Shown here piece after piece: positions 6,017 through 53,958 of a stretch of 64,000 nt of DNA. Each line of letters begins with the position of its first letter. Position 1 is the stretch's first letter. The notes under the pieces were generated by a model. It made no database searches and was not told the DNA's origin. It saw nothing but the letters and a program-made list of their open reading frames with translations. The stretch is from NCBI RefSeq assembly GCF_001922305.1, contig NZ_CP018839.1, positions 310,001 to 374,000 of the forward strand. Direction: 5' to 3'. Both the position numbers and the translations under genes were made by a program. The DNA comes from Thauera chlorobenzoica. GTDB taxonomy: Bacteria > Pseudomonadota > Gammaproteobacteria > Burkholderiales > Rhodocyclaceae.

Positions 6017-6023
6017 CGTCGCC

Positions 6024-30402: not shown

Positions 30403-30861
30403 CTATTCCAGTTTGCACCAATCCTGCTTGCTGGCCAGCATCAGTGCGTTCCAGTCATCGGGTGGGTTGCCCCGGCCCAGCATCTTCTCGAATACCGCAT
30501 ACGGGTCGGATTTACTACCTGCCGATCGCAGCGTCTGTTCATCGTTGACCCAGGCATAGACGATCACCTTGGCCTTCGAGTCATAGCGGAAGAACAGCCG
30601 GTACCGCCTTCCGAGCTTGGCCCGCCGCCAGTGGCGGTAGGCCGTCCCCAGCGTGTTGCCCTGGCGGTATTCGTCCCGCGCAGGGTCGCTCGGCACTACG
30701 TCTTGCATCAACTGGACCAAGGCCCGGAAGAACTTGACGTTGGCATTGGACTCGAAGCCCGCGGAGTCGTTCTCTTGTGCACGCAGCACGGCCGCGCGCA
30801 GTTTCATCAACTGTTCGATCAGGTTGTCGTGGAACAGCAGCGTCCAGCCATGCTGTTGCAT
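30403..30861 (-). CDS. yhaV: Type II toxin YhaV (RelE-superfamily ribonuclease)
   Basis: 152 aa. Sequence segments GWTLLFHDNLIEQL, NVKFFRALVQLMQDVVPSDP and RYRLFFRYDSKAKVIVYAWVND are typical of YhaV, a RelE-fold endoribonuclease that cleaves mRNA. Its start overlaps the antitoxin stop by one base (TGATG), the usual prlF-yhaV order. In the ICE it probably serves as an addiction module that selects against loss of the element. Confidence 0.93.
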   Translation of the reverse strand: MQQHGWTLLFHDNLIEQLMKLRAAVLRAQENDSAGFESNANVKFFRALVQLMQDVVPSDPARDEYRQGNTLGTAYRHWRRAKLGRRYRLFFRYDSKAKVIVYAWVNDEQTLRSAGSKSDPYAVFEKMLGRGNPPDDWNALMLASKQDWCKLE

Positions 30862-31178
30862 CAGATTTCCACGTCCTCATCGAAGTCGTCGCCCAGGTTC
30901 ACCTGGTGGCCCGCATGCTCCAGCATCGTGCGAGCCAAGTCTTCCGGCAGACCCCGAATGTTCCGGCCAGCCTCGATATCGCGAGCCAGCACGGTCAAGA
31001 ACGCTGCAATGGCGGGGTCTTCATGTTCGGCATCGGCACGGCTGACGACAACTTCGCCGCCGCGCAAGTCGAACGCAACTTTGCCGCCGGTATCCACCCC
31101 CAGCGCCTGCCGGATGGACTTGGGCAACGTGATCTGGCCTTTGGAGGTCAGCGTGGCAACTTCGTGGATGGCAGGCAT
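30861..31178 (-). CDS. prlF: Antitoxin PrlF (SohA), AbrB-type
   Basis: 105 aa counted from ATG 31178, which has CAGGAG at 7 bases; an in-frame ATG at 31184 sits too close to that Shine-Dalgarno. The N-terminal swapped-hairpin AbrB DNA-binding motif is ATLTSKGQITLPKSIRQALG. The C-terminal half (AAFLTVLARDIEAG, RGLPEDLARTM) binds toxin. PrlF/YhaV complexes repress their own promoter; a perfect inverted repeat 30 bases upstream is a candidate operator. Confidence 0.92.
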   Translation of the reverse strand: MPAIHEVATLTSKGQITLPKSIRQALGVDTGGKVAFDLRGGEVVVSRADAEHEDPAIAAFLTVLARDIEAGRNIRGLPEDLARTMLEHAGHQVNLGDDFDEDVEI

Positions 31179-31207
31179 GGCCATTCTCCTGATAGCAACG
31201 CCTACAG

Positions 31208-31227
31208 GGTAAGGAAAATCCCTTACC
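31208..31227. promoter_or_regulatory. Inverted repeat upstream of prlF, candidate PrlF-YhaV operator
   Basis: GGTAAGG (31208-31214), six-base spacer AAAATC, CCTTACC (31221-31227): a perfect 7-bp inverted repeat 30 bases upstream of the antitoxin start. PrlF-YhaV of E. coli is autoregulated, so this palindrome is the natural operator candidate. The rest of the 31185-31494 divergent region holds no gene; it has A/G-rich stretches (31381-31460) that could carry the mobH promoter. Confidence 0.55.
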
Positions 31228-31494
31228 TCGTCAATATGGGGCATCATTGCGTCCTCCCGAATCCAATAAGCGGACCATCGTAGGGCCGGAACAGCCAGCC
31301 TTCCCGCATCAATCCGACCTTGGTCCATCCCGCATTGACTGTGGACGGCCGTTGCCCGTTGCCCTATATCCAAAGGCTTCCAAAGGCCAAAGGGCTGAAA
31401 GGGGCAAAGGGCAAGGGAATGGGGCACAAGGGGAAAGGCCCTACCTGAAAAGGCCAAAAGACTCCCCCGGTCCGCTCACCATTCGGGATTGCCC

Positions 31495-33324
31495 ATGCTC
31501 TCGCTGTTCCAGTGCAAACGGGTGTTGCCTGCCGCCATCGCGACACCAGCCCCCACCGCCGAAGCGCCCAAAGGGATGATGCGGCCCGAGCGGGCCGCAT
31601 CACTGCTGGCGACACCACGGCGCACGAAGCTGCTGGAACACATCTGGCAGCGCACCTCGTTGTCGCGCAAGCAGTTCGCGCTGCTGTACCAAGCCCCACT
31701 CGAGCACTATGCCGAACTGGTGCAGCAGTTTCCCGCATCAGAAGCCCATCACCACGCCTATCCAGGGGGGATGCTGGATCATGGTCTGGAGATCGTCGCC
31801 TACGCGCTCAAGCTGAGGCAGTCCCATCTGCTCCCGGCTGGGGCCACACCTGAAGACCAGGCTGCCCAAGCCGAAGCCTGGACAGCAGCGGTCGCCTACG
31901 CCGCGCTCCTGCACGACCTGGGCAAGATCGCGGTCGATCTGCATATCGAGTGCGCGAATGGCTCCGTGTGGCATCCGTGGCACGGCCCACTGACGCAGCC
32001 GTACCGCTTCCGCTACCGAGAGGATCGGGAGTACAGGCTGCACAGCGCTGCCACCGGTTTGCTCTATCGCCAGGTTCTCTCTCCGGCGATTCTGGACTGG
32101 CTCAGTCAATACCCGCCACTGTGGTCTGCGCTCCTGTATGTGCTGGCCGGGCAGTATGAGCACGCTGGGGTACTGGGCGAACTGGTGGTGCAGGCAGACC
32201 GGGCATCCGTGGCGCAGGAACTCGGCGGAGATCCGGCCAAGGCCATGGCCGCGCCCAAACATGCGCTCCAGCGCAAACTGCTGGACGGCCTGCGCTACTT
32301 GCTTCGGGAGGAACTCAAGCTGAACCAGCCGCAAGCCTCGGACGGATGGCTGACCCAGGATGCGCTGTGGCTGGTGAGCAAAACGGTCTCGGACAAACTA
32401 CGCGCCCATCTGCTGGCCCAGGGCATCGACGGCATCCCATCCAGCAATACCGCGGTCTTCAACGTGCTGCAGGAGCATGGCATCGCGCTGGCCACGCCGG
32501 ACGGCAAGGCGATCTGGAAGGCCACCATCACCAGCGACGCGGGCTGGTCCCATACCTTCACGCTCCTGCGTCTCGCCCCCTCCCTGATCTGGGAAGGCAA
32601 TGAGCGGCCTGCGCCGTTCGCCGGCACGGTGGCGGTAGTGCAGGAAGATGGGGAGCCAACCGTTCCTGTGCCCTCGCCAGCCGCGGCGGATTCGGCCGCA
32701 TCCGAGCCTTTGCCGGTGCAGTCGGCCGGCGATGGCGTCGAAGCACTTCTGGATCTGCTCGGCACTTCCGACATGGCGCCGACGGATCTCTCGTCAACCA
32801 CCAAACTACTTCCGCCAACCATGAAAGAGCCGCTCCTCGAATCCGTTGAGTCAAGGGCGCCAGTCGACTCGATGACGCCGGCTCTCATAACGACTCCAGG
32901 ATTGGAGGAAACGCCGTCAGGTGCGCATTTTGTCGCCTGGCTGCGTCGGTGTATGGAAGAGCGTCGGCTCATCATCAACGACGCCAAAGCGCTGGTGCAT
33001 ACGGTCGACGACTCCGCTTATCTGGTCAGTCCCGGAGTATTCCAGCGCTACGCTCAGGAACATCCCGAGACCGCCGTCCTTGCCAAGCAAGACCAGCTAG
33101 CCGACTGGCAATGGGTGCAGAAGCGCTTCGAGAAGCTGCAACTCCACCGCAAGCAGGAGAACGGTCTGAATATCTGGACCTGCGCAGTCACGGGGCCGCG
33201 GAAGTCGCGGCGTCTCCATGGTTACCTGCTGGAAGACCCGCGCGTTCTGTTCATCGATTTACCACCGAACAACCCTTACCTGTCTCTATCGCTCTCCACT
33301 GACTCCGTGCGCCAGCCTTCGTAG
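31495..33324 (+). CDS. traI: MobH-family relaxase (TraI) with HD domain
   Basis: 609 aa from ATG 31495 (MLSLFQCKR; a TTG at 31489 is in frame). The N-terminal relaxase domain carries HHHAYPGGMLDHGLEI and the HD motif YAALLHDLGKIAVD, the hallmark of MobH relaxases (TIGR03760-like). The C-terminal domain (about 470-600: HFVAWLRRCMEERRLIIN, YLVSPGVFQRY) is the ICE-type TraI C-terminal winged helix. The enzyme nicks oriT and pilots the strand. It stands alone, divergent from prlF-yhaV. The accessory island begins right after it. Confidence 0.93.
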   Translation: MLSLFQCKRVLPAAIATPAPTAEAPKGMMRPERAASLLATPRRTKLLEHIWQRTSLSRKQFALLYQAPLEHYAELVQQFPASEAHHHAYPGGMLDHGLEIVAYALKLRQSHLLPAGATPEDQAAQAEAWTAAVAYAALLHDLGKIAVDLHIECANGSVWHPWHGPLTQPYRFRYREDREYRLHSAATGLLYRQVLSPAILDWLSQYPPLWSALLYVLAGQYEHAGVLGELVVQADRASVAQELGGDPAKAMAAPKHALQRKLLDGLRYLLREELKLNQPQASDGWLTQDALWLVSKTVSDKLRAHLLAQGIDGIPSSNTAVFNVLQEHGIALATPDGKAIWKATITSDAGWSHTFTLLRLAPSLIWEGNERPAPFAGTVAVVQEDGEPTVPVPSPAAADSAASEPLPVQSAGDGVEALLDLLGTSDMAPTDLSSTTKLLPPTMKEPLLESVESRAPVDSMTPALITTPGLEETPSGAHFVAWLRRCMEERRLIINDAKALVHTVDDSAYLVSPGVFQRYAQEHPETAVLAKQDQLADWQWVQKRFEKLQLHRKQENGLNIWTCAVTGPRKSRRLHGYLLEDPRVLFIDLPPNNPYLSLSLSTDSVRQPS

Positions 33325-33536: not shown

Positions 33537-34607
33537 TCAACTTTCTTGATCTTCGGGATACGCCGCTTGGGGAACCGGTACCCAGCCATCGCGGGTGATG
33601 CCTGCCCCGATGCGTATGTTCTTGCTTTCGGTGGCCGCCCAGTGCCCACCCCGGTGCAATACAGCGCGAATCACCGATTTCCGTGGATGATCCTCATCCG
33701 CCTTAGCAGAACTGCATATGGCATTCCAAGTATGCTTGTCCGGCATACTGTCCCACCGTGGACCAACCAGTTGATCCAGAATTTCAGTCGAAACATTGTG
33801 CCGCCCACCATGGTGAGGCACCTGGAAATACCGAATACCTGGCAGCGCGAGTCCAGCAAAAGGCGCGTAGTCGATCACCTCTTTCAGCGCTTCACGCCCG
33901 GCATCGCCAGTAAGCATGATGCGATGGCCGTTTAAGACAGTCGTCTGCACCACACTCATTTCATTTTCACGACTGGTCGGCTCAGGCGGAAAATACTCCT
34001 CCCCCCACAAGGACTTGATGTAGGCGGTCGCGGCCTTCACTACCCGGAATATGCTGCTCAGCGCGCTATCCAAAGCACTTTCTTCAACAGCTTCCGGTGT
34101 CTTCGCGGAGTCCACGATCAGGTCGAAGTAGCGCCCTAGGGTTGGTGCCATCACCATGAAGGGACCGATGCTCTGCCCCTGAAGAGGGGCATGGATTGGA
34201 ATTCCCTTCTCCACCGCAATATCCTCAAGAATTGCCGTGGCGTCATAGATGGAGCGCAACTTCCGTCTCAGTGCTTCAACTGATTCATAGTTCTCGAATC
34301 GATCAATCAACTGATCTGCGTATATCCACGGCCTGTTGATCCAAAGATTTCTGACCGTGCATTGCTCCAGGACTTTTCTCAGCCCGTTGGCGTGATCGCG
34401 ATCAGGGTGCGTGAGGATCACATTGTCGATGACAGTTGTTCCATAGTAGGTCTTCAGGTGCTCGACAATCTGATCTCCCGTATCCAGATACCCACCGTCA
34501 ACGACGTGCACGCCCTCAGTGCCATTCACCGAATAGCGCAGCGTGATCGCATCCCCGCTTTTCGCTGTTTCGACGCCAAGAAAATCGATCTCGAAGTAGT
34601 CAGCCAT
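33537..34607 (-). CDS. ComEC/Rec2-like metallo-beta-lactamase-fold protein (MBL 1)
   Basis: 356 aa from ATG 34607 (GAGGG upstream). Metal-binding motif LTHPDRDHANG gives the HxxxDH-type site of ComEC-like MBL proteins; the early strand is VHVVDGGYLDTG, later metal ligands are in MLTGDAGREAL and the VPHHGGRHN motif near residue 275. Such domains are nucleases, phosphodiesterases or hydrolases. No signal peptide or TM segment, so it is cytoplasmic, unlike ComEC. Encoded 45 bases downstream of the E2-E1-JAB fusion gene, probably co-transcribed. Substrate unknown. Confidence 0.75.
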   Translation of the reverse strand: MADYFEIDFLGVETAKSGDAITLRYSVNGTEGVHVVDGGYLDTGDQIVEHLKTYYGTTVIDNVILTHPDRDHANGLRKVLEQCTVRNLWINRPWIYADQLIDRFENYESVEALRRKLRSIYDATAILEDIAVEKGIPIHAPLQGQSIGPFMVMAPTLGRYFDLIVDSAKTPEAVEESALDSALSSIFRVVKAATAYIKSLWGEEYFPPEPTSRENEMSVVQTTVLNGHRIMLTGDAGREALKEVIDYAPFAGLALPGIRYFQVPHHGGRHNVSTEILDQLVGPRWDSMPDKHTWNAICSSAKADEDHPRKSVIRAVLHRGGHWAATESKNIRIGAGITRDGWVPVPQAAYPEDQES

Positions 34608-34652: not shown

Positions 34653-36908
34653 CTACCAGCGATCCACCACACATGTGAGTCCTGTCGGAGTCCATACCAA
34701 CGACACGGCGGGAAGCCCACCAGCATCCTCGGCGATGCCGCGCAATGTTTTTCGGTCTATACCCGAATGTGCGCCGCCTTTCGGGTGGCTGTGCCAAGTG
34801 CCGATGAAGGCGAGATATCCCAAAGAGGCAGCATTTGCAGCGCGCAAATTTTGAACAAGCCCATTGGTTCCGAGGACGAAGCGAGCGGCCTCTCGAACGC
34901 TGTCAGGCGGTGCGTCAACAAGGCCCGCAATGGTGATGGTTCGATTTTCAAACGAGATGCGGCCGACCAATGCGCCGCCTGTCTCCAGAGCGCCCCAGCG
35001 CAGCGCATCAGCATGGATCGCTTGCGCGACCGGGTGCAGAATCCGAATGTTCCAGCCACCATCGTCTGCTACATCGAGCACAGTGGTCAGGCCAAGGCTG
35101 GCGTGGGTCCATGCCATGCCGAGGCCTTCGGCATCCGAGATCCCAGCGCAAAGCGTCCCTTCCTTCGGAAGCCCGTCAACGAGCCAGCGTTCCAGTTGCA
35201 GCCCCGCCAGTGACGCAGACCGCGAAACAACGGCGTCAGACATTGGCATGGTCAGTGATCGGCAGTTGTCACCCACAAAAATGCGCGTTGGCTCAGACGT
35301 ATCACCGGCAATCGACGCACGCAGTTCCGGCACAAACCGGCAGCACTCGAACAAGAATGCCGTGAGGTCGTCAACCCGACCGGCGCGACCAGGTCCTTCA
35401 AGCAAAACCGCGACACAGCGGCCCTGACCATACATCGCGATCCGTACCAGCCGGGCAGGGGATTGGTCCAATACTGCCGATTGTGTTTCTGCGGCCAGCA
35501 CCTGAAGCGAAGCCGTTGCGTCCACGATGAGCGCCGCATCCTGCGGAACGGTTGTGGTGAACTGTGCTGGATCGACCAGGAGGGTCACTGCGTCGGCGTC
35601 GAACGCGCGCGATTGAAGATGCGACAGCTCCTCAAAGGCCGTCTTCATCAGCGCCGACTTCCGAGGTGGGACCAGCACCGATGCCCGCTCAATGAGTGCA
35701 TGCCGCGCTGCGTTGTGAGGCGACATGGATTCGTTGTCGACGAAAGTCATTGAGCCGAAACCGGCTCGCCCCAGGTGCATCGCGATTTTCGATCCTACGC
35801 TTCCGCAGCCGAGAATAACCAGCGGCTGCGATGTGGCCGCCGACGGAATGCCGGACGTCCTTGCCAGCAGTTCGGGAGACAACGCATGCGCGTGAAAGGC
35901 TGGGTGAACCGTGGCGTTTCGCTCCAGGAGCGATTGAGCGTTGAGTTCATAGCGCACCACGTAGGGCAATACCTCGACACTTCTCCCAGGTGAGCCCACA
36001 AGCGACGCTGGCCTTTGTACAGTCAGAATAACAATCGCGTACAAACCATGCATCCAGCCACGCGAGTCCTGCTGCATATCCAGGATCGAGCGTCCGTAAT
36101 AACCATCCAAGCTTTGGGCCAAAGCTTCGCAATCGATGCCGAGTTCCACTGCTCGATCAAGCAGCGTTGCGAGATCGACAACCGTCTCCGGTTGATAGCG
36201 TCCGACCACATGCGGGTGTTCGCCGGTCATTGGAGCCCGTGCAATGAAGGCCGCAGTATGGCCGTTTCCCCATTTACCCAGCTTGTCGTTGTGAACGTCC
36301 TGGTAAAACACAGGATCGACTTGCGCGGTCAGTTCGGCATTGATGATGGCGTACAGACCGCCATCGATCGTCACGTAGCCTGCGGGAACCACCAGAATCG
36401 TGCCGTCAGCGGGAGCGGCGGCAGCGACCTTCTCGGCACTGAATACTACGGTCGAAGGACAACTGTCTCTCCGCGTCGGCTCCCACCCCTGTTCAAGGTC
36501 AAGCAATGTCCCAGCTGCGGCCTTGTGCAGCCAATCGATCAACTGATCGACAATGGCGTCCAGACCAAACCGATGCAGCAACTCGTCCAATGACCCCTCG
36601 AACAGGCAAGGCGAGACCAGCTCACCTTCGCAATGGGGATTGATGTGCGGCAAGTTGAGCGGAAAGTCCGCGCGTAGAAATACCTTCGGCGCGGTCAGGG
36701 GCCAGTCAGAGCCGAATACCAGAACGCATGTCTCGACCGAGCGCACTCCAGTTTCGGATACGCCGTTGCGCCGAGACCTGTTCGGCAGTTGGACAGCAAC
36801 ATCGACGTCAATCTGCGTCGATTCACCACTTGCCCTTGGCTCGCCAACGCGGATCAGGCCTCTATGCCGCTGAAGTTGATGCAGTGCGTCTGCGATGGTG
36901 CCCGTCAT
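34653..36908 (-). CDS. E2-E1-JAB fusion protein (bacterial ubiquitin-like conjugation/deconjugation)
   Basis: 751 aa with three domains in one chain. Residues 1-140: Prok-E2 (UBC-like) domain, with the conserved H-x-C region HCEGELVSPCLFEGS; Cys101 is the likely catalytic residue. Residues about 360-580: ThiF/E1 adenylation domain, with nucleotide motif LVILGCGSVGSKIAMHLG (365-380), MSPHNAARHAL and IVDATAS; Cys549 (GDNCRS) is a candidate E1 cysteine. Residues about 625-751: JAB/JAMM peptidase with Glu642 (ETGG) and WHSHPKGGAHSGID, ligands H706, H708, D718; the H-to-S spacing is one residue shorter than in RadC. Residues 150-350 are an unassigned linker domain. Related E2-E1 and JAB pairs (Cap2/Cap3, Bil) act in phage defence. 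Overlaps MBL 2 by 4 bases. Confidence 0.8.
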   Translation of the reverse strand: MTGTIADALHQLQRHRGLIRVGEPRASGESTQIDVDVAVQLPNRSRRNGVSETGVRSVETCVLVFGSDWPLTAPKVFLRADFPLNLPHINPHCEGELVSPCLFEGSLDELLHRFGLDAIVDQLIDWLHKAAAGTLLDLEQGWEPTRRDSCPSTVVFSAEKVAAAAPADGTILVVPAGYVTIDGGLYAIINAELTAQVDPVFYQDVHNDKLGKWGNGHTAAFIARAPMTGEHPHVVGRYQPETVVDLATLLDRAVELGIDCEALAQSLDGYYGRSILDMQQDSRGWMHGLYAIVILTVQRPASLVGSPGRSVEVLPYVVRYELNAQSLLERNATVHPAFHAHALSPELLARTSGIPSAATSQPLVILGCGSVGSKIAMHLGRAGFGSMTFVDNESMSPHNAARHALIERASVLVPPRKSALMKTAFEELSHLQSRAFDADAVTLLVDPAQFTTTVPQDAALIVDATASLQVLAAETQSAVLDQSPARLVRIAMYGQGRCVAVLLEGPGRAGRVDDLTAFLFECCRFVPELRASIAGDTSEPTRIFVGDNCRSLTMPMSDAVVSRSASLAGLQLERWLVDGLPKEGTLCAGISDAEGLGMAWTHASLGLTTVLDVADDGGWNIRILHPVAQAIHADALRWGALETGGALVGRISFENRTITIAGLVDAPPDSVREAARFVLGTNGLVQNLRAANAASLGYLAFIGTWHSHPKGGAHSGIDRKTLRGIAEDAGGLPAVSLVWTPTGLTCVVDRW

Positions 36909-38098
36909 GATGCCCCGTGCGGCATGGGAGTGCGCGCAGAGGTCACCACGGCAGCGGTCTTCGATCCGGACTCCTTCTTCGAGGGAGGCTGCACACCCTG
37001 AGCGGTTACGGTGAAAACGAGTGGCTCCGCGGATTTTTCGCTCGGGTACTCGCCCGTGCAGTAGAACTCGCCTTTTGCTTCGTCCACGATCGCCACGTAC
37101 TCACGCTTCGCGCGGATGCAGGGCGGATCGCTGTCGTCGTCTGCAATCAGCTTGCAACTGGCGACGATGACGGCACCGTCACGGGTCTGCGAAAGCGCCT
37201 TGCGGGCGTCGGCATCGAGTTTGGCCTTTTCGCCGTAGTCGGACCAACTGTCATAGGACAGCGAATGCCAGGAACAGTGATGCGGTGCCTGCATGATGTC
37301 GTATTCAAGCACATCGGCTTCGGCCTTGTGGCGCTGCCACTGCCGGTTCCAGATGAATACCTCAGCATCGCCACTAGTAAGGAATTTCGCGCCATCCGGC
37401 GTCTGTGCATCAGCTGCCAATGTGATGTTCAGGATCACGCTGGACTGGTTCTTGACCAGGCACTCTTCCTCTTCCTCGTCGTCCGGGGCATCCAGAGGGG
37501 CCAGAAGAAACGCGGAGAAGAATGCGGAACTCTTGCCATTGATCGTCGAGAAGCTCGTGTCCACCTTCCGCACAATGGAGGTGAGATCATCGGTTTTTCC
37601 GTCGATGTCCTCGCCCATGATCTGAATGCGGTCACCGTTCCCGACGGCGAAATTCTTGTCGCGGTTCAGTTGTACGCGTCGACGCGCCTCCGTGTTGAAT
37701 GCCTTGGCGTCTTCGCTCAAGGTGTGCGTCTTGCTGGCGCGTCGAAACACGATCGGGGAGGACCACATCTCGCGGATCACGATCTTTTTGTCCTTGTCGT
37801 CCTTCTTGTCATCCGGGTACTTGTCCAGCGACCCCAAGTGGAAGTGCCGCGTCAGGCCTCGGCAATGGTCTTGATCCGGGTGGCTCAGCAGGAACGCATC
37901 GACATACGGCCTGCCGTTCTCGTCCTTCTTCAGTCGGTCGCGCAGGTCCTTGGCGACATCGCGCGCCTCCCCGTCAGGGTCGTCGGCGTCTTGCCTGATG
38001 TTTACGTCGATCAGCAGGGTGGTTGCGTCGAGATCGCCGAACTTGATGAGGGTCATGTCCCCGTTGTCGACGGGGAAAAACGTGATGGTTGTGGTCAT
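36905..38098 (-). CDS. ComEC-like metallo-beta-lactamase-fold protein (MBL 2)
   Basis: 397 aa. An N-terminal strand FFPVDNGDMTLIKFG leads to the metal site LLSHPDQDHCRGL and later FLTSGDAEVFIW and QAPHHCSWHS. It lacks TM segments. It differs from MBL 1 by a highly charged insert (YPDDKKDDKDKK) and an extra C-terminal 80 residues with CIRAKREYVAIVDEA. First gene of the minus-strand unit; its promoter must lie in 38099-38187 shared with the WYL gene. Pairing two related MBL proteins around one E2-E1-JAB chain suggests a heteromeric or sequential activity, but this is inference. Confidence 0.72.
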   Translation of the reverse strand: MTTTITFFPVDNGDMTLIKFGDLDATTLLIDVNIRQDADDPDGEARDVAKDLRDRLKKDENGRPYVDAFLLSHPDQDHCRGLTRHFHLGSLDKYPDDKKDDKDKKIVIREMWSSPIVFRRASKTHTLSEDAKAFNTEARRRVQLNRDKNFAVGNGDRIQIMGEDIDGKTDDLTSIVRKVDTSFSTINGKSSAFFSAFLLAPLDAPDDEEEEECLVKNQSSVILNITLAADAQTPDGAKFLTSGDAEVFIWNRQWQRHKAEADVLEYDIMQAPHHCSWHSLSYDSWSDYGEKAKLDADARKALSQTRDGAVIVASCKLIADDDSDPPCIRAKREYVAIVDEAKGEFYCTGEYPSEKSAEPLVFTVTAQGVQPPSKKESGSKTAAVVTSARTPMPHGAS

Positions 38099-38187: not shown

Positions 38188-39090
38188 ATGCAAGAACCCC
38201 CTGTCACTGCCACCGATCCTGCTGAGCCCAAGGGGCTAAGTTGGGGGTTGGAGAGCAGACTTCAATTCATCGATTTCCGTTTGCGCTGGGAGCGGCGCAT
38301 CAATCGAATGGATCTCACTGAGCACTTCGGCATATCGGTTCCCCAGGCGTCACTGGACATCGCCAAGTACACGGAGTTGGCGCCGAGCAACCTGACTTAC
38401 GACCGCAGTTCCAAGACCTACACGGCGGCGCCGAGTTTTCATCCGCTTTACCAACGAAGCTCGGCGCAACGCTATCTAGCGGAGCTGCTGGCGACCAAGA
38501 TGGGAGTTGTCGAGCCGGCGGCCAGCTTTATCGGCTCCGCGCCGGAGACAGATTGGGCGCCTTCCCCGTGGCGCACGATCAATGAGCAGACCGTCGAAGC
38601 AGTGGTCCGGGCAATCCGGCAACAGGAAGCTATTCGGGTGAGCTATCAGTCCATGACTTCCTTGGACGAATCGATTCGCCTGCTGTCCCCGCACGCCCTT
38701 GGCAACGACGGTTTTCGCTGGCACGTGCGCGCGTTTTGCCACAAGCGCCAGCGTTTCAGCGATTTCGTCCTTGCCCGAATCCTGCGTATCGACGGTTTCG
38801 AGCCGAGCCAAGTGGACTTCAGCCAGGATGCGCATTGGCATACTGTGCTGATGCTGGTCCTTGCGCCGCACCCTGATTTGCCCGCGGCCAAGAAACGAGT
38901 CTTGGAGCTGGACTACGGCATGGAAGACGGACAGATCAAACTTCCATGCCGCCAAGCGTTTCTGTACTACACGCTGAGGCGTTTGGGCTTGCATACCAAG
39001 GAAGCGCCAGACCCTCTCGCGCAGCAGATCACGCTGAAAAACCGCGATGAAATCCAACCCTACATTGATGCCTTGACAGCACAGGCTTGA
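38188..39090 (+). CDS. WYL-domain transcription regulator (CapW/BrxR-like)
   Basis: 300 aa: N-terminal winged helix-turn-helix (NRMDLTEHFGISVPQASLDIA, about residues 32-55), a WYL domain (IRVSYQSMTSLDESIRLLSPHALGNDG, then FRWHVRAFCHKRQRFSDFVLARI) and a WCX C-terminal extension. CapW and BrxR proteins share this architecture and repress CBASS or BREX operons until infection. It is divergent from the MBL/E2-E1-JAB genes and 6 bases upstream of the membrane protein gene, so it probably regulates both units through the tandem repeat just upstream. Confidence 0.85.
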   Translation: MQEPPVTATDPAEPKGLSWGLESRLQFIDFRLRWERRINRMDLTEHFGISVPQASLDIAKYTELAPSNLTYDRSSKTYTAAPSFHPLYQRSSAQRYLAELLATKMGVVEPAASFIGSAPETDWAPSPWRTINEQTVEAVVRAIRQQEAIRVSYQSMTSLDESIRLLSPHALGNDGFRWHVRAFCHKRQRFSDFVLARILRIDGFEPSQVDFSQDAHWHTVLMLVLAPHPDLPAAKKRVLELDYGMEDGQIKLPCRQAFLYYTLRRLGLHTKEAPDPLAQQITLKNRDEIQPYIDALTAQA

Positions 39091-39096
39091 CTTCCC

Positions 39097-39885
39097 ATGA
39101 CAACAATTTTTGAACTGGTCAAGGACCCCTACGAGCGCAAGGCACGCGTTGTTCCTGGACTTCTTGTGGCCTTGCCGGTACTGGTGCCGCTGTTGTGCGT
39201 CTATGGGGCAAAGCATCCTGTGCTTACAGGTGTGATCGGCCTGCTTGGCGGCTGCGGTGCCATTTATGCGCTTGCGAGTGTGGCTCGCGGGCGCGGGAAA
39301 AAGCTTGAAGAGATCCTGGTTGCAAAGTGGGGCGGCATGCCCACAACCATCGCTCTACGCCATCGTGACAAGTTTCTCGATAGTGTCAGCAAGCAGCGCT
39401 ACCACACGGCGATCACGGCCAAGCTGGGTATTGTCATGCCGACGGCAGAGGAAGAATCAACAAGCCCCGACAAGGCAGACGACATCTACGTCGGTGCAAC
39501 CAAACGGCTTCGAGAACTCACGCGTTCTAACAAGCAGCTCTTGCTGAAAGAGAACATTGCATATGGGTTTCACCGCAATATGCTGGCGATGAAGCCAGTC
39601 GGCATCGTATCGTGCGTCCTTGGTATCCTCTACGGATTGTTGATTGCAAAGGTTCTCCAGGTAACACCTCCCCACTTTGACCCTTTGCACTTTGCCGATC
39701 CGGGGCTCGCCGCAGGCTTGACGCTGCTCATTTCGCTGGCGCTACTTGCCGCTTGGCTACTGTATTTCGATCAGAGCGCGGTCAGGCGCATGGGATTCGT
39801 CTATGCGGAACGCCTATTTGAGTGCTTGCCGTCATTACCGTCTTCAGCCTCACGGAAAAAGCCGCTGGCCGCACAGCGCCCTTGA
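39097..39885 (+). CDS. Four-TM membrane protein, candidate effector of the E2-E1-JAB module
   Basis: 262 aa. Two N-terminal TM helices (VALPVLVPLLCVYGA and VLTGVIGLLGGCGAIYAL, residues about 22-65), a soluble helical domain of about 100 residues, then two more TM helices (IVSCVLGILYGLLIAKVL and GLTLLISLALLAAWLLYF). No family recognised with certainty. It starts 6 bases after the WYL gene and is therefore probably under the same control as the conjugation genes. Two-plus-two TM architecture with a cytoplasmic sensor-like middle is common among abortive-infection effectors; the effector role is inferred from context. Confidence 0.6.
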   Translation: MTTIFELVKDPYERKARVVPGLLVALPVLVPLLCVYGAKHPVLTGVIGLLGGCGAIYALASVARGRGKKLEEILVAKWGGMPTTIALRHRDKFLDSVSKQRYHTAITAKLGIVMPTAEEESTSPDKADDIYVGATKRLRELTRSNKQLLLKENIAYGFHRNMLAMKPVGIVSCVLGILYGLLIAKVLQVTPPHFDPLHFADPGLAAGLTLLISLALLAAWLLYFDQSAVRRMGFVYAERLFECLPSLPSSASRKKPLAAQRP

Positions 39886-39960: not shown

Positions 39961-40680
39961 CTACCTCTGACGCAAAGCGACGAACTGGTTACTCGGGCCT
40001 TCCGACCGGAGGTCGAGGCTCGGGCTGTTCGACACCACGTAGGCCAGGGGCCGCGTCAAGTTGAACGGGAACAGCACGGGCAGCGACTGCAGACTGGGTA
40101 CTGAAACGGGCTTACCCGCGTAGCGCACAGCAGCTTCGATCAGCCAAGCAGTGAGCGCATCGTTGTCGATGCTCGTCTGTGGCAAGCGAATGACGCGCTT
40201 GCCTTTCTCGACCCGCTCCACGGCGCCCCAGCTCGCCTGGCTCTGGATGACCATGTTGGTCATACGCCGGGTGCCTTCGCGCTCCCCATAGGTTTCACTC
40301 ATGCGCCGATGGACCTCGGCGGACGCACAGTCACCCTGAATGGCGGACAGGCGGCCCACCAGCTCGGCCACCTTGCCAAAGAACGGGTACGTCGCCACGG
40401 ACATGCCCCAGCACAGCGCTGAGACGGGAATGTCCGGCTGCGTCTTGTGGATGGCCACGCCGCGATCCGCGTAATCGACCAGTTCGGCGCGTGGCTCCAG
40501 CCACAACCGATTCAGTACGGTGCGTGTTTTTTTCTTGGCTTCCACGCCAAGTTCGGCTGCATCAAGCAGTGCATTCAGATCATCTAGCCCAGCCACGCCT
40601 GCACGAACATTCAGTGCCGCAGCCGCCCAATCAAGCTGAATGAACCGATCAAAGCCGATTTGAGGGGCTAATGAATTCAT
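39961..40680 (-). CDS. brxA: BrxA-like protein of BREX-3
   Basis: 239 aa from ATG 40680, whose ATGA overlaps the pglZ stop; an ATG at 40689 is in frame but lies inside pglZ. The helical protein (LDDLNALLDAAELGVEAKKKTRTVLNRLW, the PDIPVSALCWGMSVATYPFF segment and the C-terminal AAVRYAGKPVSV) resembles DUF1819/BrxA-like winged-helix DNA-binding proteins. Last gene of the operon, the position of brxA in type 3 systems. Sequence similarity to type 1 BrxA is weak by eye, so the name rests partly on position. Confidence 0.7.
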   Translation of the reverse strand: MNSLAPQIGFDRFIQLDWAAAALNVRAGVAGLDDLNALLDAAELGVEAKKKTRTVLNRLWLEPRAELVDYADRGVAIHKTQPDIPVSALCWGMSVATYPFFGKVAELVGRLSAIQGDCASAEVHRRMSETYGEREGTRRMTNMVIQSQASWGAVERVEKGKRVIRLPQTSIDNDALTAWLIEAAVRYAGKPVSVPSLQSLPVLFPFNLTRPLAYVVSNSPSLDLRSEGPSNQFVALRQR

Positions 40681-42688
40681 TCGGTACAAATCACATAACT
40701 GACTTTCACAAAGGGCACGATCAACTCTTCGACCGACACCCCGCCGTGGACCACCACCTGCTCGCCCTCGGGCACAAAGGCGGTTCGTCCGCCTGCGAAT
40801 AGGGGCATGAAGTTCGCGGGCAGTCCAGCGATGTCCAACCTGACTGTGGTGGGATAGGCCGCAGCGGAATCGGCCAGCAATGGCTCACTCCGGTAGACCC
40901 GAACACGCTCTCCGCGCGTCTCGGCAATCACGCCCTGGCTGGGCCTACCGACGCCGGTGGACTCAACGTTGCCGTGGTCCGCCGTGAGATAGATGTGGTA
41001 TCCCTTGTCCAGCAGCAGCGAGAACAGCCGGTCGACGAAACCGGTCGTCAGCCAGTTCCCGATCCACATCGCCACGTCCTTCTTGGACCGCTCCTTGTGG
41101 AGCCGATCGTCCACCTCATCGATGACCAGGCCCACCACTTTCGGTCGACGGTCATTCAAATCCGCTTCCAGTGCGTCGAGCTGATGGGTCTGACGCAGCG
41201 CGCGTCGATACATCACCTCATTCGAATTGACGCCTTCGTTCTGCCAGAACGTCTTCCACAAGGATTCCTCCTTGTCCGTCCTGTCGATGGAGTCGTCGAA
41301 CTCTCGCGGTTTCAGCCCGGAGAACAGCGCCTGACGCGACACCGACGTCACGGTCGGCAGCCATGCAAACGCGGTTCCCTCGTCGAACGCGAAACGTTTC
41401 GTGGTGGCGATCAGGCGCTCGCGGATTTGCACCCACTGGTCGAAGGCCAGCCCGTCGAATACCAGCAGAGCCACCTTGGTTTCCCCTGCGGACCGCCGAT
41501 GCCGCAAGAAGCGCGGCACGTGGTGCACCATCACCGGACCTTTGGTCACCGGCTGCAGGATCAGGTCGGCGTAATGCTTGGCTGCGACCCAGGCTCGCAG
41601 ACCCTCGTCTGATTGCGCATGCAAGGTCTTGATCCGCTCTCGAATCACCGGCAGGTGTTCGCTGCCTTCCGTACCTGGCAGACCATGCGTGCGGGCCAGG
41701 ATCTCACCGTAGCGTTTGGCGAACTCGCTCCAGTCCTTGTGCGAAGAGGCCGCTGTTGGGGTCGTCTCGATCAGGCCATCGATGCCTTTGAGCACCAATG
41801 CCTGCAGTGCCGCCGGGTCCTGAACAATGCCAGCCTTGATCCAACTCGGCATCCCCGCCGGAACACTGTGAACCGCGAGCGGATGCAAGCTGCCGTCGAG
41901 AAACATGGAATCGACCAGCACCTGCACATCGGAGTGGTCGAACGGAATCACGATCTTCGCGACGTAGTCCGGTGGCGGCGGCTCGCCTGTACGCGTGCCA
42001 TCCAGCCCCAGGGTCGTCAGGTAGCGATACCACGCATCCTGCACCACACGCAGCAGCGCGCTCTTGGACGCCAGCCATGTGGCGACGGGAAGGTCCAGGA
42101 ACAGTCCCTTGCCCTGGATGATGCCTGCCGCGTGCTGGGCAAACAGGGGTGGCAACGAGCGGTTGGCGAAGTGCATTCGCAGCAGCTCACGCCAGAAGTC
42201 CACCGGGTTGCGAATCGACCTCGGCGCCAGTTGGCAGACGTGCTCGAGGATGAAGTCCTTGGACTCGTTCTCGCCGCGCGCGGACTGCAATTCGGTCTGG
42301 TGGGCATGAAACAGTCCAGCAAAATGCTCCGGCTCGACTTGCTGTACCGCGCTGTATGCCAGTCTGGGGAAGAGCTCCGCAAGGCTCAATCGAACCACAC
42401 GTCCGTGGTGCACGATGTCCCAAGGCAGCGCATTCGCGTCGGCGCTGCGCAGATGCAGAACCAGCGAAGGCGCTGGCCCCGGCTCACCGCAATCCCAGGC
42501 TGCGCGATAGCGTTCCTCGTATTCAGCACGGAAGGCGAACGGGTCTTCGTACAGCATCACCTCGAAGCCGCGACCGCGCAGTTCGGACAACAGCTTTTCG
42601 TCCAGCAGCACATCGTCGGGGTCGCACGCCACCCACAGCCGGGTGAGATCGGCCGTAAAGTGGCTGAGAATACGTTCTGACCACTGGC

Positions 42689-42692
<4 letters not shown>
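40677..42692 (-). CDS. pglZ: PglZ, BREX alkaline-phosphatase-superfamily protein
   Basis: 671 aa. The PglZ core has the metal-binding segments VALLVFDGLAFDQWVQ, PTVTSVSRQALFSG and YLTADHGNVESTGV, matching the alkaline-phosphatase fold of PglZ. An N-terminal half of about 330 residues carries no recognised motif, as in other type 3 PglZ. Essential BREX component, present in all types. Overlaps brxHII stop (4 bases) and brxA start. Confidence 0.9.
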
Positions 42693-45517
<2,825 letters not shown>

Positions 45518-45529
45518 GCGGATCAGCTC

Positions 45530-46828
45530 TCAGGAACGACTGACATTGACTTGGCCGTCTACTGCCTTGGCCGCATCAAAGTCATGGTTCCAGTCGCCCA
45601 TCTGCTTGCGTTTGGCGGCTGGCAAGGCCTTGTCAACCTTCGCGCGAAACTCCGGGTTTTTCGTTTGCTCGTAGGTCACATCCTTGAACACGAGCTTCAC
45701 CTCAGGCACCTCATCTTTGGTCCGATCCAGACTTTTCTGAATACTGTCCCGCAGTTGTTTCTCATCAAGCTTGGACCCCGTCCGAGCTGCGCGCTCGGCG
45801 ATCAGCTTGGCAGCTTCATCGATGATCTTGCCCGCCTGCGCGTCCAGTCGCTGCCGAATCGCCTCGGAATAGGCTTCCAGCTGAACGCGGTAGGCTGCGA
45901 CCAAACGCTCCAAGTCTTGCTTGTCGTCCTTGGCGATCAGGCGGCCGAAACCCGGCACATTGAACAGGTAGCGGCGCTCCAGCTCATTGCGCTGCCTTTG
46001 CAGGGACGCTTCGCTGACCTTCTCCATCAGCCGTTTCTGGCTGCTGTCGAACACCTCATTGCCGTTGTTGAACGCCGGCACTTCAACTTCCTCGTCCCGA
46101 AAGTCGCCAAATGCGCGCAATCTGGATTCCACCAGGCCCTTCAGCTCGCCCTGGATATCCGCGTTCATGTAGTCGTTGGAAACCTTCAGCTCGCGCTTGG
46201 AAAACTTCGCGCCCTTCACCGTGAACTCGGCGAACTGCAGCTTGGTGCTGAATACACGGGTAATGCGCGCCAGATCCACCGGAATCGGTGGATTCTTGGC
46301 CAGACCGTCCAGTGTCTTTTGCACCCTCTCTTTGGTGACCACCTCTACGCCGACCTCCGCATCGAATGGGAGCGTATCGGTGCCGGCGGCCGACACCGCA
46401 TGCGCCAATTGCTCGCCAGGATTGGCGCCAAGCAACAGGCCGTTGGGCGATCGTTCGGTTGGGGAGGCAGCGTTTCCGAGCGGGGCTGCTTCCACCGAGC
46501 GCGGTGTAGGCGACCACACCAAGGTGACGTCATCCACCAAGAGCACGCCAACCCGAAGCCCCGGCTGCGCCATCAACGCGAAGCTCTGGCGCTCGGCGTA
46601 ACTGCTCAACAACTCAAGTCCCTTGGCATCGCCGTAGCCAATGCGGCATACATCCTCATCCGGATCGATCACCACCGTGACCTGAAGTCGATCGACCTCG
46701 GCCAGTCGCTGCCCAAGCGCCTCCGCAACGGTCTGATGCACGCCCGGCGCGACAAACACCACACGTTGCTGCGCCTCGCCGATGAGTTTGATCAGCGATG
46801 CATCATTGACCTCCTGGAAGGTGCTCAT
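45530..46828 (-). CDS. PLD-like-fold protein in the BREX-3 operon
   Basis: 432 aa. The first 180 residues (SLIKLIGEAQQRVVFVAPGVHQ, then VTVVIDPDEDVCRIGYGD and VGVLLVDDVTLVWSPTPRSVE) have the alternating strand/helix pattern of one phospholipase D-like domain, but the HKD catalytic motif is absent, so it is probably non-catalytic. The remaining 250 residues are helical/coiled coil (RNELERRYLFNVPG, DEAAKLIAERAAR). It overlaps pglX by 4 bases and is not one of the six canonical type 3 genes, though such a gene is found in some type 3 loci. A DNA-scaffolding or regulatory role is guesswork. Confidence 0.65.
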   Translation of the reverse strand: MSTFQEVNDASLIKLIGEAQQRVVFVAPGVHQTVAEALGQRLAEVDRLQVTVVIDPDEDVCRIGYGDAKGLELLSSYAERQSFALMAQPGLRVGVLLVDDVTLVWSPTPRSVEAAPLGNAASPTERSPNGLLLGANPGEQLAHAVSAAGTDTLPFDAEVGVEVVTKERVQKTLDGLAKNPPIPVDLARITRVFSTKLQFAEFTVKGAKFSKRELKVSNDYMNADIQGELKGLVESRLRAFGDFRDEEVEVPAFNNGNEVFDSSQKRLMEKVSEASLQRQRNELERRYLFNVPGFGRLIAKDDKQDLERLVAAYRVQLEAYSEAIRQRLDAQAGKIIDEAAKLIAERAARTGSKLDEKQLRDSIQKSLDRTKDEVPEVKLVFKDVTYEQTKNPEFRAKVDKALPAAKRKQMGDWNHDFDAAKAVDGQVNVSRS

Positions 46829-49680
46829 GCCCCGTCCTCGGTACGGGTCAGCGCGAGGTCATAGAGGGTGAGAAGCTTCTCGTCCTCTTGAAGTGTGGCA
46901 TCGGGCAATTTGTCGGCAATACTGATGATCGTCGCGTAGTCCTTGCTGGCCCACGCAGCGCGGAAACCAGCACGCAGCACCTCCAGACGCGACTCCTTGA
47001 TCTTGCGACCAGTGAACGACCGATAGGCCTCGAACTCCTTGAGCAGCGCCTTCTCGCGTTTCTTCTCCAGGTCCTGTGCCTTGTTCGGGTCGGGCACGTA
47101 CCAGCGATCTTTCGCTTTGGCCATAAGCGCTGGACTGTTCTTCTCTAACCCGCGTAGATCCTTGTGGTTGCTTGAAAGGTAGCTGTGAATCTGGCTTGGT
47201 ACATCGCCAACCCCGTCGTACTGGATAAAGTTCAGCTCCAACAGCGAAGACAACTCAGGCTTTGCCTCGTGCTTTTTCCATCCCGCTCCAAGTTGGCTGA
47301 TGAACTCTGGGTGTATTTCTTGATATGTAGACGGGCGCTGCTTCAAAAAGTCTGTCAGCCAATCAATTGCACTACGCTCGTCTGTAACGAACATCTCCAT
47401 CTGAGGCGCTTGCGATGCCAACGCACGCTTTCTGTCATATTCGGCAACCTGCTCCGGGAGAAAAATCATTCCATCACGTGTGATAAACCTCTGCGCAAGT
47501 CCTGATTGAAACTCCTGTGACGACATGGGTACTGGAACGTTATGCCGAAAGAACCATGCAACCATGCGATCGAAAATGATCCTAGGCTCCCGTTCGACAA
47601 CAAACTCTAATTCCCTTCCGTTTAGCTTAACGGTTGGCAGATAAGTCAAGTGCGTTCGCACAAAATCCCAGGCAGAGTCCTCTGATCCTCCACTCCTGGA
47701 GAATCGATCCTCGAGACCGCCATTTGGCTTGTATGCGGATATGACTAGATCCTGCTTGACCGCAGTGGTAGTCGTTACAGCCTTAAAGCCTTTGTGTGTT
47801 TTCTCTAGAACAGAAACGTTGCCAACAACGAAGCCCGCCTCCTGTAGCGAGGTCTGAATCGCGTTCCAAACACTTGCCTTTGTGTTTGAAAATTCGACCG
47901 TCATCCATCTCCCAGGCTTCAAGACTCTATATGCCTCTAGGAAGCACCCCAGCATCAGACGCCTGTAGTCATCGACAGATTTATTCTGAGTTCTATTTTC
48001 TATCGCTTCCTGCTTTGAATTTGTCGTTACCTTTAACCAGGACTCCCAAAGAAAATTAAGCTCCGAGTACATGATGTTTGATCCAAACGGAGGGTCAATA
48101 AACAGATAGTCAACCGAGGCAGAGGGAATGTTGGTGACAGCTGCACTACCTGTTGAAACGATCGCCTTGTTTGACGGCGCCGTGAAGGGAACAGAGGATA
48201 TGCGCAGCGAAAATCGTTCTAATGGATTTGTTTCGACCGCGATAGAGCTGATATAAAGAGTTCCTTGGAGGGTCTGGCCGATTACGCCACCGCCACCTCC
48301 GAAGTAATTTGATGCCAGCAAGCGGTTAAGGCGATTTGTCCATGCGAGGGTGGAAGTAAACCAAAGTCCAAGAGCCGGCATGGAATGCATTTGAGAAAAT
48401 ATCTTCGCCCGAATATCAGCAAGAACAAGCAATGTTCGATGTGTGTAGAAGTGATGCGCATTAGTGACGCCAATTCGCAGCGGCTCGCCTGTTTTATCGC
48501 CAATCATTAGCTCATTGGCGGGGAACCAGGATACAGGCGTCTCTTGCAGCGATTTCTTGAACAATTCAATGTCGGCCGCATCCAAAGACTTCTCAAATCG
48601 CTTTTTCCCGACCGTATAGTTTATTGCGACGGGAACCTGCTTTGTCTGTCGATGTGTTTTCCCGAGCGCATTGTCGAATGCACTTGTCCACGCTCTGTCG
48701 ATGGATCGTTTTGATAAGCTTGCCCCACAACCAGTGCAGCCGAACTCATCCATTACCTTGCCGGCGTCTCTGTCTACAGCTGCGTCCCAGAAAACAACCT
48801 CCTGCGAACACTCTGGGCAAACAAAGACATCAGACCAAATTAAGAAATTTACCCACCCCACCTGGCCGACTTGTTTCAAGTCAGGCTTGCCCTCTTTCTC
48901 AATCAACCGCACTGCAGAATTGAGCTGATCTGGCGTCGGCTGGTGAAGGGTTTGATACATCCATCCATGGTTCTCCTCGACTGATTTCAGTATCTCCCTA
49001 GCGCGACGTTCAAAGTCGTGCGCCTCAACAGGGGAATTGAAATTATGAGCAATGAAGCTCGCTGCAGGAGCAAGATCGTTTAGGACCGGCATTCTCGGTC
49101 CAAGCCTCGAAAATGGCTTCCACTCAACGCGACCATCTTGGTCTTGGCGATCATAGATGACACCATCCTGATCGACTCGGTAACCTAGGGATTCGACTTC
49201 CCTCCTATCCCCACAAAGCTGTGCAGCGACGCCGCTCATGCCTGTCCCACAGAACCCGTCAAATAAAACATCACCAGGCTGCGTGTAATGCAGGATGTAT
49301 CGCATCACAGCCTTATGAGGAACCTTCGTGTGATAACTGTGCGCGTTATAGATGGGTGCATTCTTGCCTTCGCTCACGTCGGCAGTGAACGGCTCTTTGC
49401 TATAAGGGACCGACGAATCGTATGGTTTGCCGTAATGCCGAATGAAGTCCTCGATGAATGGATTCGGACATGCCGTGTAGTACGGCGGGTCAGAAAGCGC
49501 CAAGATGTCTTCGTCCGAGCCAATAGGAAAACCTTCGATCTTCCGGAACGCGGGATCTTTGAGCTTCTCCGCAAGCAGCTTCAGGTAGTGCTCGCGACGC
49601 GCCTCATCATTCGGGAACGTTTGCCCGAGGCATTCAACGGGGCCGGATTTGGCCGCGAGGTTCTGGAAAAGATCATTCAT
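46825..49680 (-). CDS. pglX: PglX-type adenine-specific DNA methyltransferase of BREX-3
   Basis: 951 aa. Methyltransferase motifs: DPPYYTACPNPF (residues 64-75, motif IV) precedes VLFDGFCGTGMSGVA (motif I, near 138), a permuted beta-class-like order; a second DPPF site is in FIDPPFGSNIMYSELNFLW near residue 527. A zinc-ribbon-like stretch CPECSQ ... CTGCG lies near 286-318. It methylates the host recognition sequence in BREX. Its middle (about 47,110-49,480) is visibly richer in A and T than the ends and neighbouring genes, which points to replacement of the specificity part. Overlaps the PLD-like gene. Confidence 0.88.
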   Translation of the reverse strand: MNDLFQNLAAKSGPVECLGQTFPNDEARREHYLKLLAEKLKDPAFRKIEGFPIGSDEDILALSDPPYYTACPNPFIEDFIRHYGKPYDSSVPYSKEPFTADVSEGKNAPIYNAHSYHTKVPHKAVMRYILHYTQPGDVLFDGFCGTGMSGVAAQLCGDRREVESLGYRVDQDGVIYDRQDQDGRVEWKPFSRLGPRMPVLNDLAPAASFIAHNFNSPVEAHDFERRAREILKSVEENHGWMYQTLHQPTPDQLNSAVRLIEKEGKPDLKQVGQVGWVNFLIWSDVFVCPECSQEVVFWDAAVDRDAGKVMDEFGCTGCGASLSKRSIDRAWTSAFDNALGKTHRQTKQVPVAINYTVGKKRFEKSLDAADIELFKKSLQETPVSWFPANELMIGDKTGEPLRIGVTNAHHFYTHRTLLVLADIRAKIFSQMHSMPALGLWFTSTLAWTNRLNRLLASNYFGGGGGVIGQTLQGTLYISSIAVETNPLERFSLRISSVPFTAPSNKAIVSTGSAAVTNIPSASVDYLFIDPPFGSNIMYSELNFLWESWLKVTTNSKQEAIENRTQNKSVDDYRRLMLGCFLEAYRVLKPGRWMTVEFSNTKASVWNAIQTSLQEAGFVVGNVSVLEKTHKGFKAVTTTTAVKQDLVISAYKPNGGLEDRFSRSGGSEDSAWDFVRTHLTYLPTVKLNGRELEFVVEREPRIIFDRMVAWFFRHNVPVPMSSQEFQSGLAQRFITRDGMIFLPEQVAEYDRKRALASQAPQMEMFVTDERSAIDWLTDFLKQRPSTYQEIHPEFISQLGAGWKKHEAKPELSSLLELNFIQYDGVGDVPSQIHSYLSSNHKDLRGLEKNSPALMAKAKDRWYVPDPNKAQDLEKKREKALLKEFEAYRSFTGRKIKESRLEVLRAGFRAAWASKDYATIISIADKLPDATLQEDEKLLTLYDLALTRTEDGA

Positions 49681-49728
49681 CAGTCGTTCCTCTAATTCCT
49701 TTTGTCATGGTCGGGTGATCACGTTGTG

Positions 49729-53469: not shown

Positions 53470-53492
53470 ATGGTTCTCTCTTCCCCGTAGCG

Positions 53493-53948
53493 TCAAATTT
53501 CGAGTACGACCACGCCGTCACGGCTGTAGTCACGATGTTCTGGATGGCTCATGTCGGCGTACACCAAGCGATCACCACGCAGCTCGCCAGGCCAGACGGC
53601 CACGACGCGCTTGGAGTGAGCCAGCCGCCTGACGAGGTCAAGCGGGTTGATCTGCAAGCCCGGCTCGAACAACAACTCGAGGTTGTCGAGCAGCAGCGGG
53701 TCTTCAGTTCGTTCCTTGTCCGCAATTTCCCGCAGCAGTTCGCCTGCCGAGAAGCCGCGCTTGTTATTCGGCGTGGCGGCCAAACGGCGCCCCAACTCCA
53801 GGCCGACGTTGAGCGGCTCGATGTTGAGCTTGGCGCTGAGTTGGCGCAGCAGTTGGGTCTTGCCACTGCGGCTGGGACCGACCAGCAGGATCAACTTGCT
53901 GTTGAGGTCGCCGATTTCGCCGATGAGTCGTTCGAGTTTTGCGAGCAT
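53493..53948 (-). CDS. brxF: BrxF, small P-loop protein of BREX-3
   Basis: 151 aa from ATG 53948, which has GAGGGG at six bases; the ATG at 53954 directly abuts that Shine-Dalgarno and is less likely. Walker A is ILLVGPSRSGKTQLL; Walker B-like region is DPLLLDNLELLFEP. Compact size and position (right after the WYL gene, before brxC) match the type 3-specific BrxF ATPase. The junction with the upstream WYL gene is a few bases, implying co-translation. Confidence 0.87.
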   Translation of the reverse strand: MLAKLERLIGEIGDLNSKLILLVGPSRSGKTQLLRQLSAKLNIEPLNVGLELGRRLAATPNNKRGFSAGELLREIADKERTEDPLLLDNLELLFEPGLQINPLDLVRRLAHSKRVVAVWPGELRGDRLVYADMSHPEHRDYSRDGVVVLEI

Positions 53949-53958
53949 GCTCATCCCC

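Follow-up and report, generated by a model that had tools for sequence, protein, structure and literature searches.

A metallo-beta-lactamase as candidate conjugated modifier in the 6A-MBL operon of Thauera chlorobenzoica

A stretch of 64,000 nucleotides of Thauera chlorobenzoica DNA (the window) encodes one protein in which an E2, an E1 and a JAB domain are joined, and the question raised by this triple protein is what it conjugates. A preliminary description of the locus saw no substrate beside the gene and concluded that the target of conjugation had to be encoded elsewhere or be of a new kind. We analyzed the triple protein, its neighbours and related loci from other genomes (given L numbers below). 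The protein encoded by the overlapping upstream gene, a metallo-beta-lactamase (MBL) named MBL1, is the likely modifier because it carries a glycine signature of the Cap2/cGAS type beside a fusion that resembles Cap2 and Cap3. The question can thus be answered with a named and testable residue, Gly395 of this next-door protein.

The triple protein and its family

The gene for the triple protein (6A-MBL cap2_3, 751 amino acids) occupies 34653..36908 on the minus strand, as do the domains within it. Pfam placed an E2 domain (Prok-E2_A) at residues 5-165 (36414..36896), in which Cys101 is encoded at 36606-36608. A ThiF-type E1 adenylation domain at about residues 355-605 (35094..35846) contains the candidate E1 cysteine, Cys549, and a JAB isopeptidase domain with E642, H706, H708 and D718 covers residues 606-751 (34656..35093). 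Cys101 and His88 of the E2 domain were identical in all 28 aligned triple proteins. The protein scored 558.9 bits against NCBIfam profile NF058523 (6A-MBL_cap2_3), for which the curated cut-off is 320, and the cut-off was also passed by all nine triple proteins tested from related loci, which represented the HG, RAG, YG and FG tail classes described below. In the predicted structure, residues 1-605 matched Cap2 and residues 606-751 matched Cap3 of type II CBASS, and structure comparison of the model showed Cap2 to be the closest structural relative. The model had a pTM of 0.67, so the placement of its domains relative to each other is uncertain. Cys549 sits in a disordered loop of the model, and its assignment was based on conservation and loop position and not on residue superposition. 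The Pfam domains, the NF058523 match and the model bear out the fusion reported in the preliminary description, and also its proposal that one chain, related to both Cap2 and Cap3, holds the predicted activities for ligation and for removal of a modifier.

The same description set the fusion against known defence relatives with separate proteins, but the fusion was already described in 2006 and now has its own curated family in NCBIfam. The passages on operon type 6a in Iyer, Burroughs and Aravind (PMC1779556) describe a triple-module protein with E2-like, E1-like and JAB modules, adjoined in most operons by a "specialized" metallo-beta-lactamase. The window has the E2, E1-like and JAB domains in that order in one chain, with an MBL gene adjacent. 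In NCBIfam release 20.0, "6A-MBL_cap2_3" and "6A-MBL_enzyme" are curated equivalogs assigned to an "anti-phage 6A-MBL system", in which the anti-phage label is the NCBIfam name only; both core proteins of the window exceeded the cut-offs and are encoded by adjacent genes. The terms 6A-MBL and E2-E1-JAB were not found in the open-access literature. A "new architecture" for the triple protein was therefore rejected, given row 6a of 2006 and the NCBIfam equivalog. Since it is already named and curated, the architecture is ordinary, and the assignment of MBL1 as substrate is the useful part of this analysis.

As the preliminary description stated, neither a CD-NTase gene nor a beta-grasp gene was found beside the triple gene. 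The neighbours in the operon are the MBL, WYL and membrane protein genes, and no SMODS profile match was present in the whole genome. A CD-NTase supplied in trans was rejected on the basis of this genome result.

MBL1 and its glycine tail

MBL1, a ComEC-like metallo-beta-lactamase of 397 amino acids and the candidate conjugated modifier, is encoded at 36905..38098 on the minus strand, with a 4-base overlap with the triple gene. Its metal motif HPDQDH lies at residues 73-78 (37865..37882, minus strand). MBL1 scored 439.4 bits against NF058524 (6A-MBL_enzyme; curated cut-off 220), and all ten MBL proteins tested from relatives also exceeded the cut-off. The NF058524 match stops at residue 368 with the profile complete, so the glycine tail lies outside this model. 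Over residues 1-375 structure comparison of MBL1 matched ComEC and other MBL folds; the fold is that of an MBL and not beta-grasp. Together, HxDxDH and HHxS were present in 26 of the 28 MBL1 representatives described below, and the other two are broken reading frames. Among 69 loci with a full-length triple, MBL1 lies beside it on the same strand in 66; one of the three exceptions is cut by a contig end, and L106, in which the frame is broken, is counted among the 66.

The predicted structure of MBL1 is ordered to about residue 374, and pLDDT is below 50 at residues 375-397. The tail, assigned from pLDDT and the conserved glycine motif, extends over about residues 373-397 (36908..36982, minus strand) and ends PMPHG|AS, with Gly395 encoded at 36914-36916 on the minus strand. 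MBL1 therefore has the flexible tail with a C-terminal glycine, in many cases followed by an extension, that is expected of a ubiquitin-like modifier. The preliminary description had stated that no neighbouring protein ends in a di-glycine-like tail; it had overlooked MBL1. With this tail next door, a substrate encoded elsewhere is not required, while its suggestion of a substrate of a new kind may hold in one sense, since the fold of the candidate modifier is neither beta-grasp nor CD-NTase.

Gly395 was one of 21 invariant columns in an alignment of 13 proteins, the 12 others being 22-70% identical to the MBL1 of the window. In a 35-row alignment (A3) the glycine column was nearly invariant, and the RAG tails of L053, L054 and L058 were shifted against it. 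The motif was found in 119 of 120 database relatives, 118 times as HG; these relatives were mostly close (54-95% identical) and were found with a profile that included the tail. The sole miss was P0199, a protein of 380 amino acids. The tails of 47 of the 120 relatives stop exactly at the glycine, and 72 carry one to six further variable residues, mostly two.

For a broader count, 68 locus proteins and the 120 relatives were clustered at 60% identity, which gave 28 representatives. The counts exclude own-genome copies (L001 and L044) and a set of short copies (L045-L050 and L069-L080) that L094-L109 replaced. Each reading frame was taken to begin at the first start codon that follows a stop, which makes some proteins longer at the N terminus than their annotated versions. 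In 27 of the 28 representatives, the last 12 residues contained HG, RAG, YG or FG with 0-6 further residues behind it; the positives include L093, the C-terminal piece of a broken gene, and L102, which was scored as HG here and as RAG in the tree analysis. The single miss was L106, in which the reading frame is broken, and a separate ORF of the same gene (L078 and L080) ends VAPRAG. The same motif was present in 266 of 5,600 internal 12-mers (4.75%), in 7.3% of shuffled tails, and at none of 27 triple C-termini or 19 membrane-protein C-termini. Because the motif was derived from the same tails, these controls measure its chance rarity and are not an independent discovery. Loci that were retrieved with the triple protein alone as query also showed the glycine tail. 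No earlier report of an MBL glycine tail was found in the open-access literature (PubMed Central).

Recognition of this tail by the triple protein could also lead to a product other than a protein conjugate, either a lipid conjugate as with Atg8 or proteolytic release and activation of MBL1. The variable residues after the glycine would suit proteolytic trimming, the candidate effectors described below are membrane proteins or patatins, and the part of Jenson et al. that deals with the target of cGAS leaves a lipid open (PMC10097602). However, 11 of the 27 motif-bearing representative tails and the 47 relatives mentioned above already end at the glycine and need no trimming, and a UBC-type E2 with an invariant catalytic cysteine would be superfluous for proteolysis alone. 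We consider this alternative unlikely.

The second MBL protein of the locus, MBL2, was also considered as the modifier. Its accessory gene lies downstream of the triple gene at 33537..34607 on the minus strand (start ATG at 34607; ORF open from 34652), and it matched the PADLOC candidate PDC-M48B with 506.6 bits; no mention of PADLOC "PDC-M48" was found in the open-access literature. MBL2 ends in PEDQES, a tail that lacks glycine, and it was rejected as modifier because the last 10 residues contain no glycine in the window, L037 or L097. Its loss elsewhere further rules it out: L008 and L022 have a broken copy, and no copy was found in L026 or L028.

Tail class, exchangeable genes and genomic setting

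The tail classes were compared with trees of the triple protein and of the MBL1 body, the latter built without the tail columns. The trees covered 41 loci and were made by a quick method; L043, L051, L029 and 22 of the 26 loci L002-L027 were omitted, as were loci with a triple shorter than 700 amino acids, an MBL1 shorter than 300 amino acids or no adjacent pair, and L103 and L098 formed long branches. The triple tree put the FG, RAG and HG/YG tails into separate clades and needed three changes of tail class, the fewest possible with four states. The MBL1-body tree required four, because six loci (L040, L053, L054, L058, L092 and L097) pair MBL1 bodies of the HG clade with triple proteins of the RAG clade and RAG tails. 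The MBL1 bodies of these six were 53-58% identical to that of the window. Forcing the 16 RAG rows into one clade on the MBL1-body tree was rejected (p-AU 0.0002), and a triple tree constrained to group the six loci with the HG/YG rows was rejected as well (p-AU 0.0003), the six rows having been picked after inspection of the trees. Tail class goes with the triple tree, even where the triple stands beside an MBL1 body from another clade. The conflict between the two trees comes down to essentially a single exchange, and recombination within the 3' end of the MBL1 gene could yield the same picture, with the tail moving together with the enzyme. Therefore, the linkage of tail and triple may be positional as well as functional.

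These results bear on a further alternative, in which the modifier is a beta-grasp protein from elsewhere in the genome (ThiS/MoaD-like or unrecognised) and MBL1 is merely a target or effector. A genome search gave four ThiS-family matches above the cut-off, and ThiF-type E1 domains act on such proteins; in addition, two genomes (L099 and L100) retain a full triple although a search of the entire genome found no MBL1, so the triple can persist without its MBL1 partner. However, none of the four matches lies near the operon, 11 of 14 control genomes also contain the family, which is thus widespread, and both the conserved tail of MBL1 and its agreement with the triple tree would be left unexplained. 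Moreover, the substrate of Cap2, the closest structural relative, is described by Jenson et al. as an enzyme from its own operon (PMC10097602). A beta-grasp modifier is accordingly quite improbable in our judgement. The solitary full-length E2-E1-JAB proteins of the two genomes (L099:5784-8270 and L100:5670-8039) share the same neighbourhood, and each is possibly a domesticated enzyme with a different substrate.

The candidate effector of the window is a membrane protein of 262 amino acids, encoded on the plus strand at 39097..39885, in which a hydropathy scan predicted two pairs of transmembrane segments. It is homologous to the third gene, after the triple, in seven loci (L038, L085, L086, L087, L088, L094 and L095), with phmmer scores of 79.6 to 104.8 bits and E values of 2.2e-25 to 4.7e-33 that refer to a set of just 19 sequences. 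A second family of membrane proteins was the third gene in L036, L037, L091, L096 and L103, and a third family in L040, L054 and L092. Patatins follow the triple in L041, L042, L090 and L108, and by record annotation adjoin it in L082, L083 and L084; L033 and L104 encode triple and patatin as a single fused E2-E1-JAB-patatin chain. Third genes were assigned at loci other than L028, L039, L052, L053, L058, L081, L101, L102, L105 and L106, and locus-by-locus inspection was confined to loci other than L003-L027. The third gene of the operon is exchangeable. The membrane protein at 39097-39885 is likely the effector, a role that patatins would take at other loci.

Several details of the patatin loci were recorded. 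The four-part fusions span L033:6948-10448 and L104:4469-8002, and the adjacent MBL1 has a tail of the FG class. The patatin after the triple in L090 (7367-8555) seems to be split into two overlapping ORFs, with the Pfam match on the first, and in L081 an annotated patatin lies about 3 kb upstream of MBL1.

Divergently from MBL1, a WYL-domain regulator (Pfam WYL, 1.7e-12) is encoded at 38188..39090 on the plus strand, and WYL genes are annotated near MBL1 in eight relatives (L038, L039, L040, L043, L081, L084, L091 and L092). The possibility that this gene serves solely as a BREX regulator was rejected, because L040, L043 and L092 have such a gene near MBL1 with no BREX gene in the sequence taken from each locus; it may control both the 6A-MBL operon and the BREX set. 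At L087 (2252-3498), genes for an ImmA/IrrE peptidase and a helix-turn-helix protein are found upstream of MBL1, in the position held by the WYL gene elsewhere, which recalls the CapH and CapP regulators as described in part of PMC13373217.

The operon lies within an integrative conjugative element, with a MobH relaxase (31489-33324), TraG and an integrase (57485-59392). It is adjoined by a BREX set on the minus strand (39961-54044) that consists of BrxA, PglZ, BrxHI, a 432-amino-acid protein (45530-46828), PglX, BrxC and BrxF (53493-54044); the 432-amino-acid protein had no PADLOC match at E 0.001. Elsewhere, the operon adjoins a type I restriction system (L036) or DUF1819/DUF1788 genes (L083). 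The setting is that of a defence island. A YhaV-type toxin and a PrlF/MazE-type antitoxin are also encoded among the conjugation genes of the window (30403-31385, minus strand).

Alternatively, the operon might serve the element itself, in its maintenance, entry or exclusion, and not defence. Its position between the conjugation genes and the integrase speaks for this, as do 300 plasmid records with a match to the triple, which in 31 records spans 80% or more of its length. On the other hand, defence genes adjoin the operon in the window and at the two other loci just named, NCBIfam names the system anti-phage, and WYL regulators and patatins recur. A service to the element is very improbable.

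With E values up to 1e-20 accepted, the triple profile had matches in 7 of 398 genomes sampled from the phylum, 8 of 369 from the class and 4 of 385 from another class; the first two counts include the genome of the window, and a few matches cover the JAB part only. Close matches to the L040 version were present in 36 of 5,426 complete Escherichia coli genomes, and in 29 of these the match covered 80% or more of the query; one copy, 99.9% identical, lies on a plasmid of E. coli SE11 (NC_011413.1). Since versions of the system are present in E. coli, direct tests are possible in laboratory strains. A tblastn search of phage records with MBL1 (E up to 1e-5) gave no match. However, contigs that IMG/VR classes as viral carry the operon, among them L051, L053, L054 and L058; these copies may be prophage-borne, or the contigs may be miscalled. 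In the Hymenobacter locus L039 (triple at 3972-6212), the annotation starts the gene at 4476, but its reading frame extends back to 3972 without a stop. This start is probably an error, because the longer frame takes in the E2 region and its conserved His and Cys.

Proposed pathway and comparison with known systems

The observed gene order, domains, catalytic residues, conserved tail, co-inheritance of tail and triple, and exchangeable third gene, along with the predicted folds, were considered together. The putative anti-phage 6A-MBL operon probably works like type II CBASS, with a metallo-beta-lactamase in the place of the CD-NTase and MBL1 as the conjugated modifier. JAB would remove the short extension after Gly395. 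The E1 domain would then adenylate Gly395 and hand it on via Cys549 to Cys101 of the E2, as the residues and the Cap2 fold suggest. By analogy with Cap2 and cGAS, the flexible tail of MBL1 would be joined to its target, either a protein lysine or a lipid, and the joining may switch on or place the hydrolase activity of MBL1. As with Cap3, JAB could undo the joining. Activated MBL1, probably with nucleic acid or a nucleotide as its substrate, would lead to membrane damage through the 2+2 transmembrane protein at 39097-39885, or through a patatin at other loci, and the membrane protein or patatin would then kill the infected cell.

We also lean, with some reserve, towards a more specific proposal. 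MBL1 would represent a third kind of modifier, after beta-grasp proteins and CD-NTases: an active MBL precursor of the ComEC-like nuclease type that is trimmed after a class-specific glycine (HG, RAG, YG or FG) and conjugated by a dedicated E2-E1-JAB protein, with tail and enzyme co-adapting upon module exchange. This idea may already be present in the source behind the NCBIfam name "6A-MBL". If it is true, the membrane and patatin effectors would make this a CBASS-like pathway around a hydrolase and not a nucleotide cyclase. On at least two occasions, bacterial ubiquitin-type conjugation enzymes would then have been adapted to an immune enzyme that is encoded in their own operon and is not ubiquitin-like, a nucleotide cyclase in one case and a metallo-beta-lactamase in the other. 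Searches for such glycine tails could then reveal more modifiers of this type.

Among known MBL proteins, the nuclease-type MBL domain of ComEC/Rec2 and the MBL proteins LmuA and Avs1a were compared with MBL1, which differs in the lack of a channel domain, in its glycine tail and in its E2-E1-JAB operon. Bil and Bub are defence operons with E1, E2 and JAB activities and a dedicated ubiquitin-like modifier. BubCD structures were among the Foldseek matches of the triple protein. However, no ubiquitin-like modifier was found beside the window operon, and its enzymes form a single chain. With 6A-MBL (type 6a), the operon shares the E2-E1-JAB order and the adjacent MBL gene, and nothing excludes it from that family; the membrane protein gene, the WYL gene and MBL2 are additions described here.

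CBASS also has membrane effectors. The window operon differs from type II CBASS in that an MBL replaces the CD-NTase, Cap2 and Cap3 are fused, and many members of its family carry residues after the glycine. Type II CBASS shares with the triple protein both the Cap2-like E2-E1 and the Cap3-like JAB folds. Patatin effectors are shared as well, CapV being described as a phospholipase, and so are WYL regulators, represented there by CapW, a WYL repressor that controls a CBASS operon according to part of PMC9122588. The passages of Jenson et al. on conjugation report that Cap2 makes a thioester with the C-terminal glycine of cGAS, that Cap3 cleaves after this glycine, and that conservation of a C-terminal Gly/Ala is restricted to operons that encode Cap2 and Cap3 (PMC10097602). 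The two systems thus share a glycine tail on an enzyme from the same operon, which is the CD-NTase in type II CBASS and MBL1 here.
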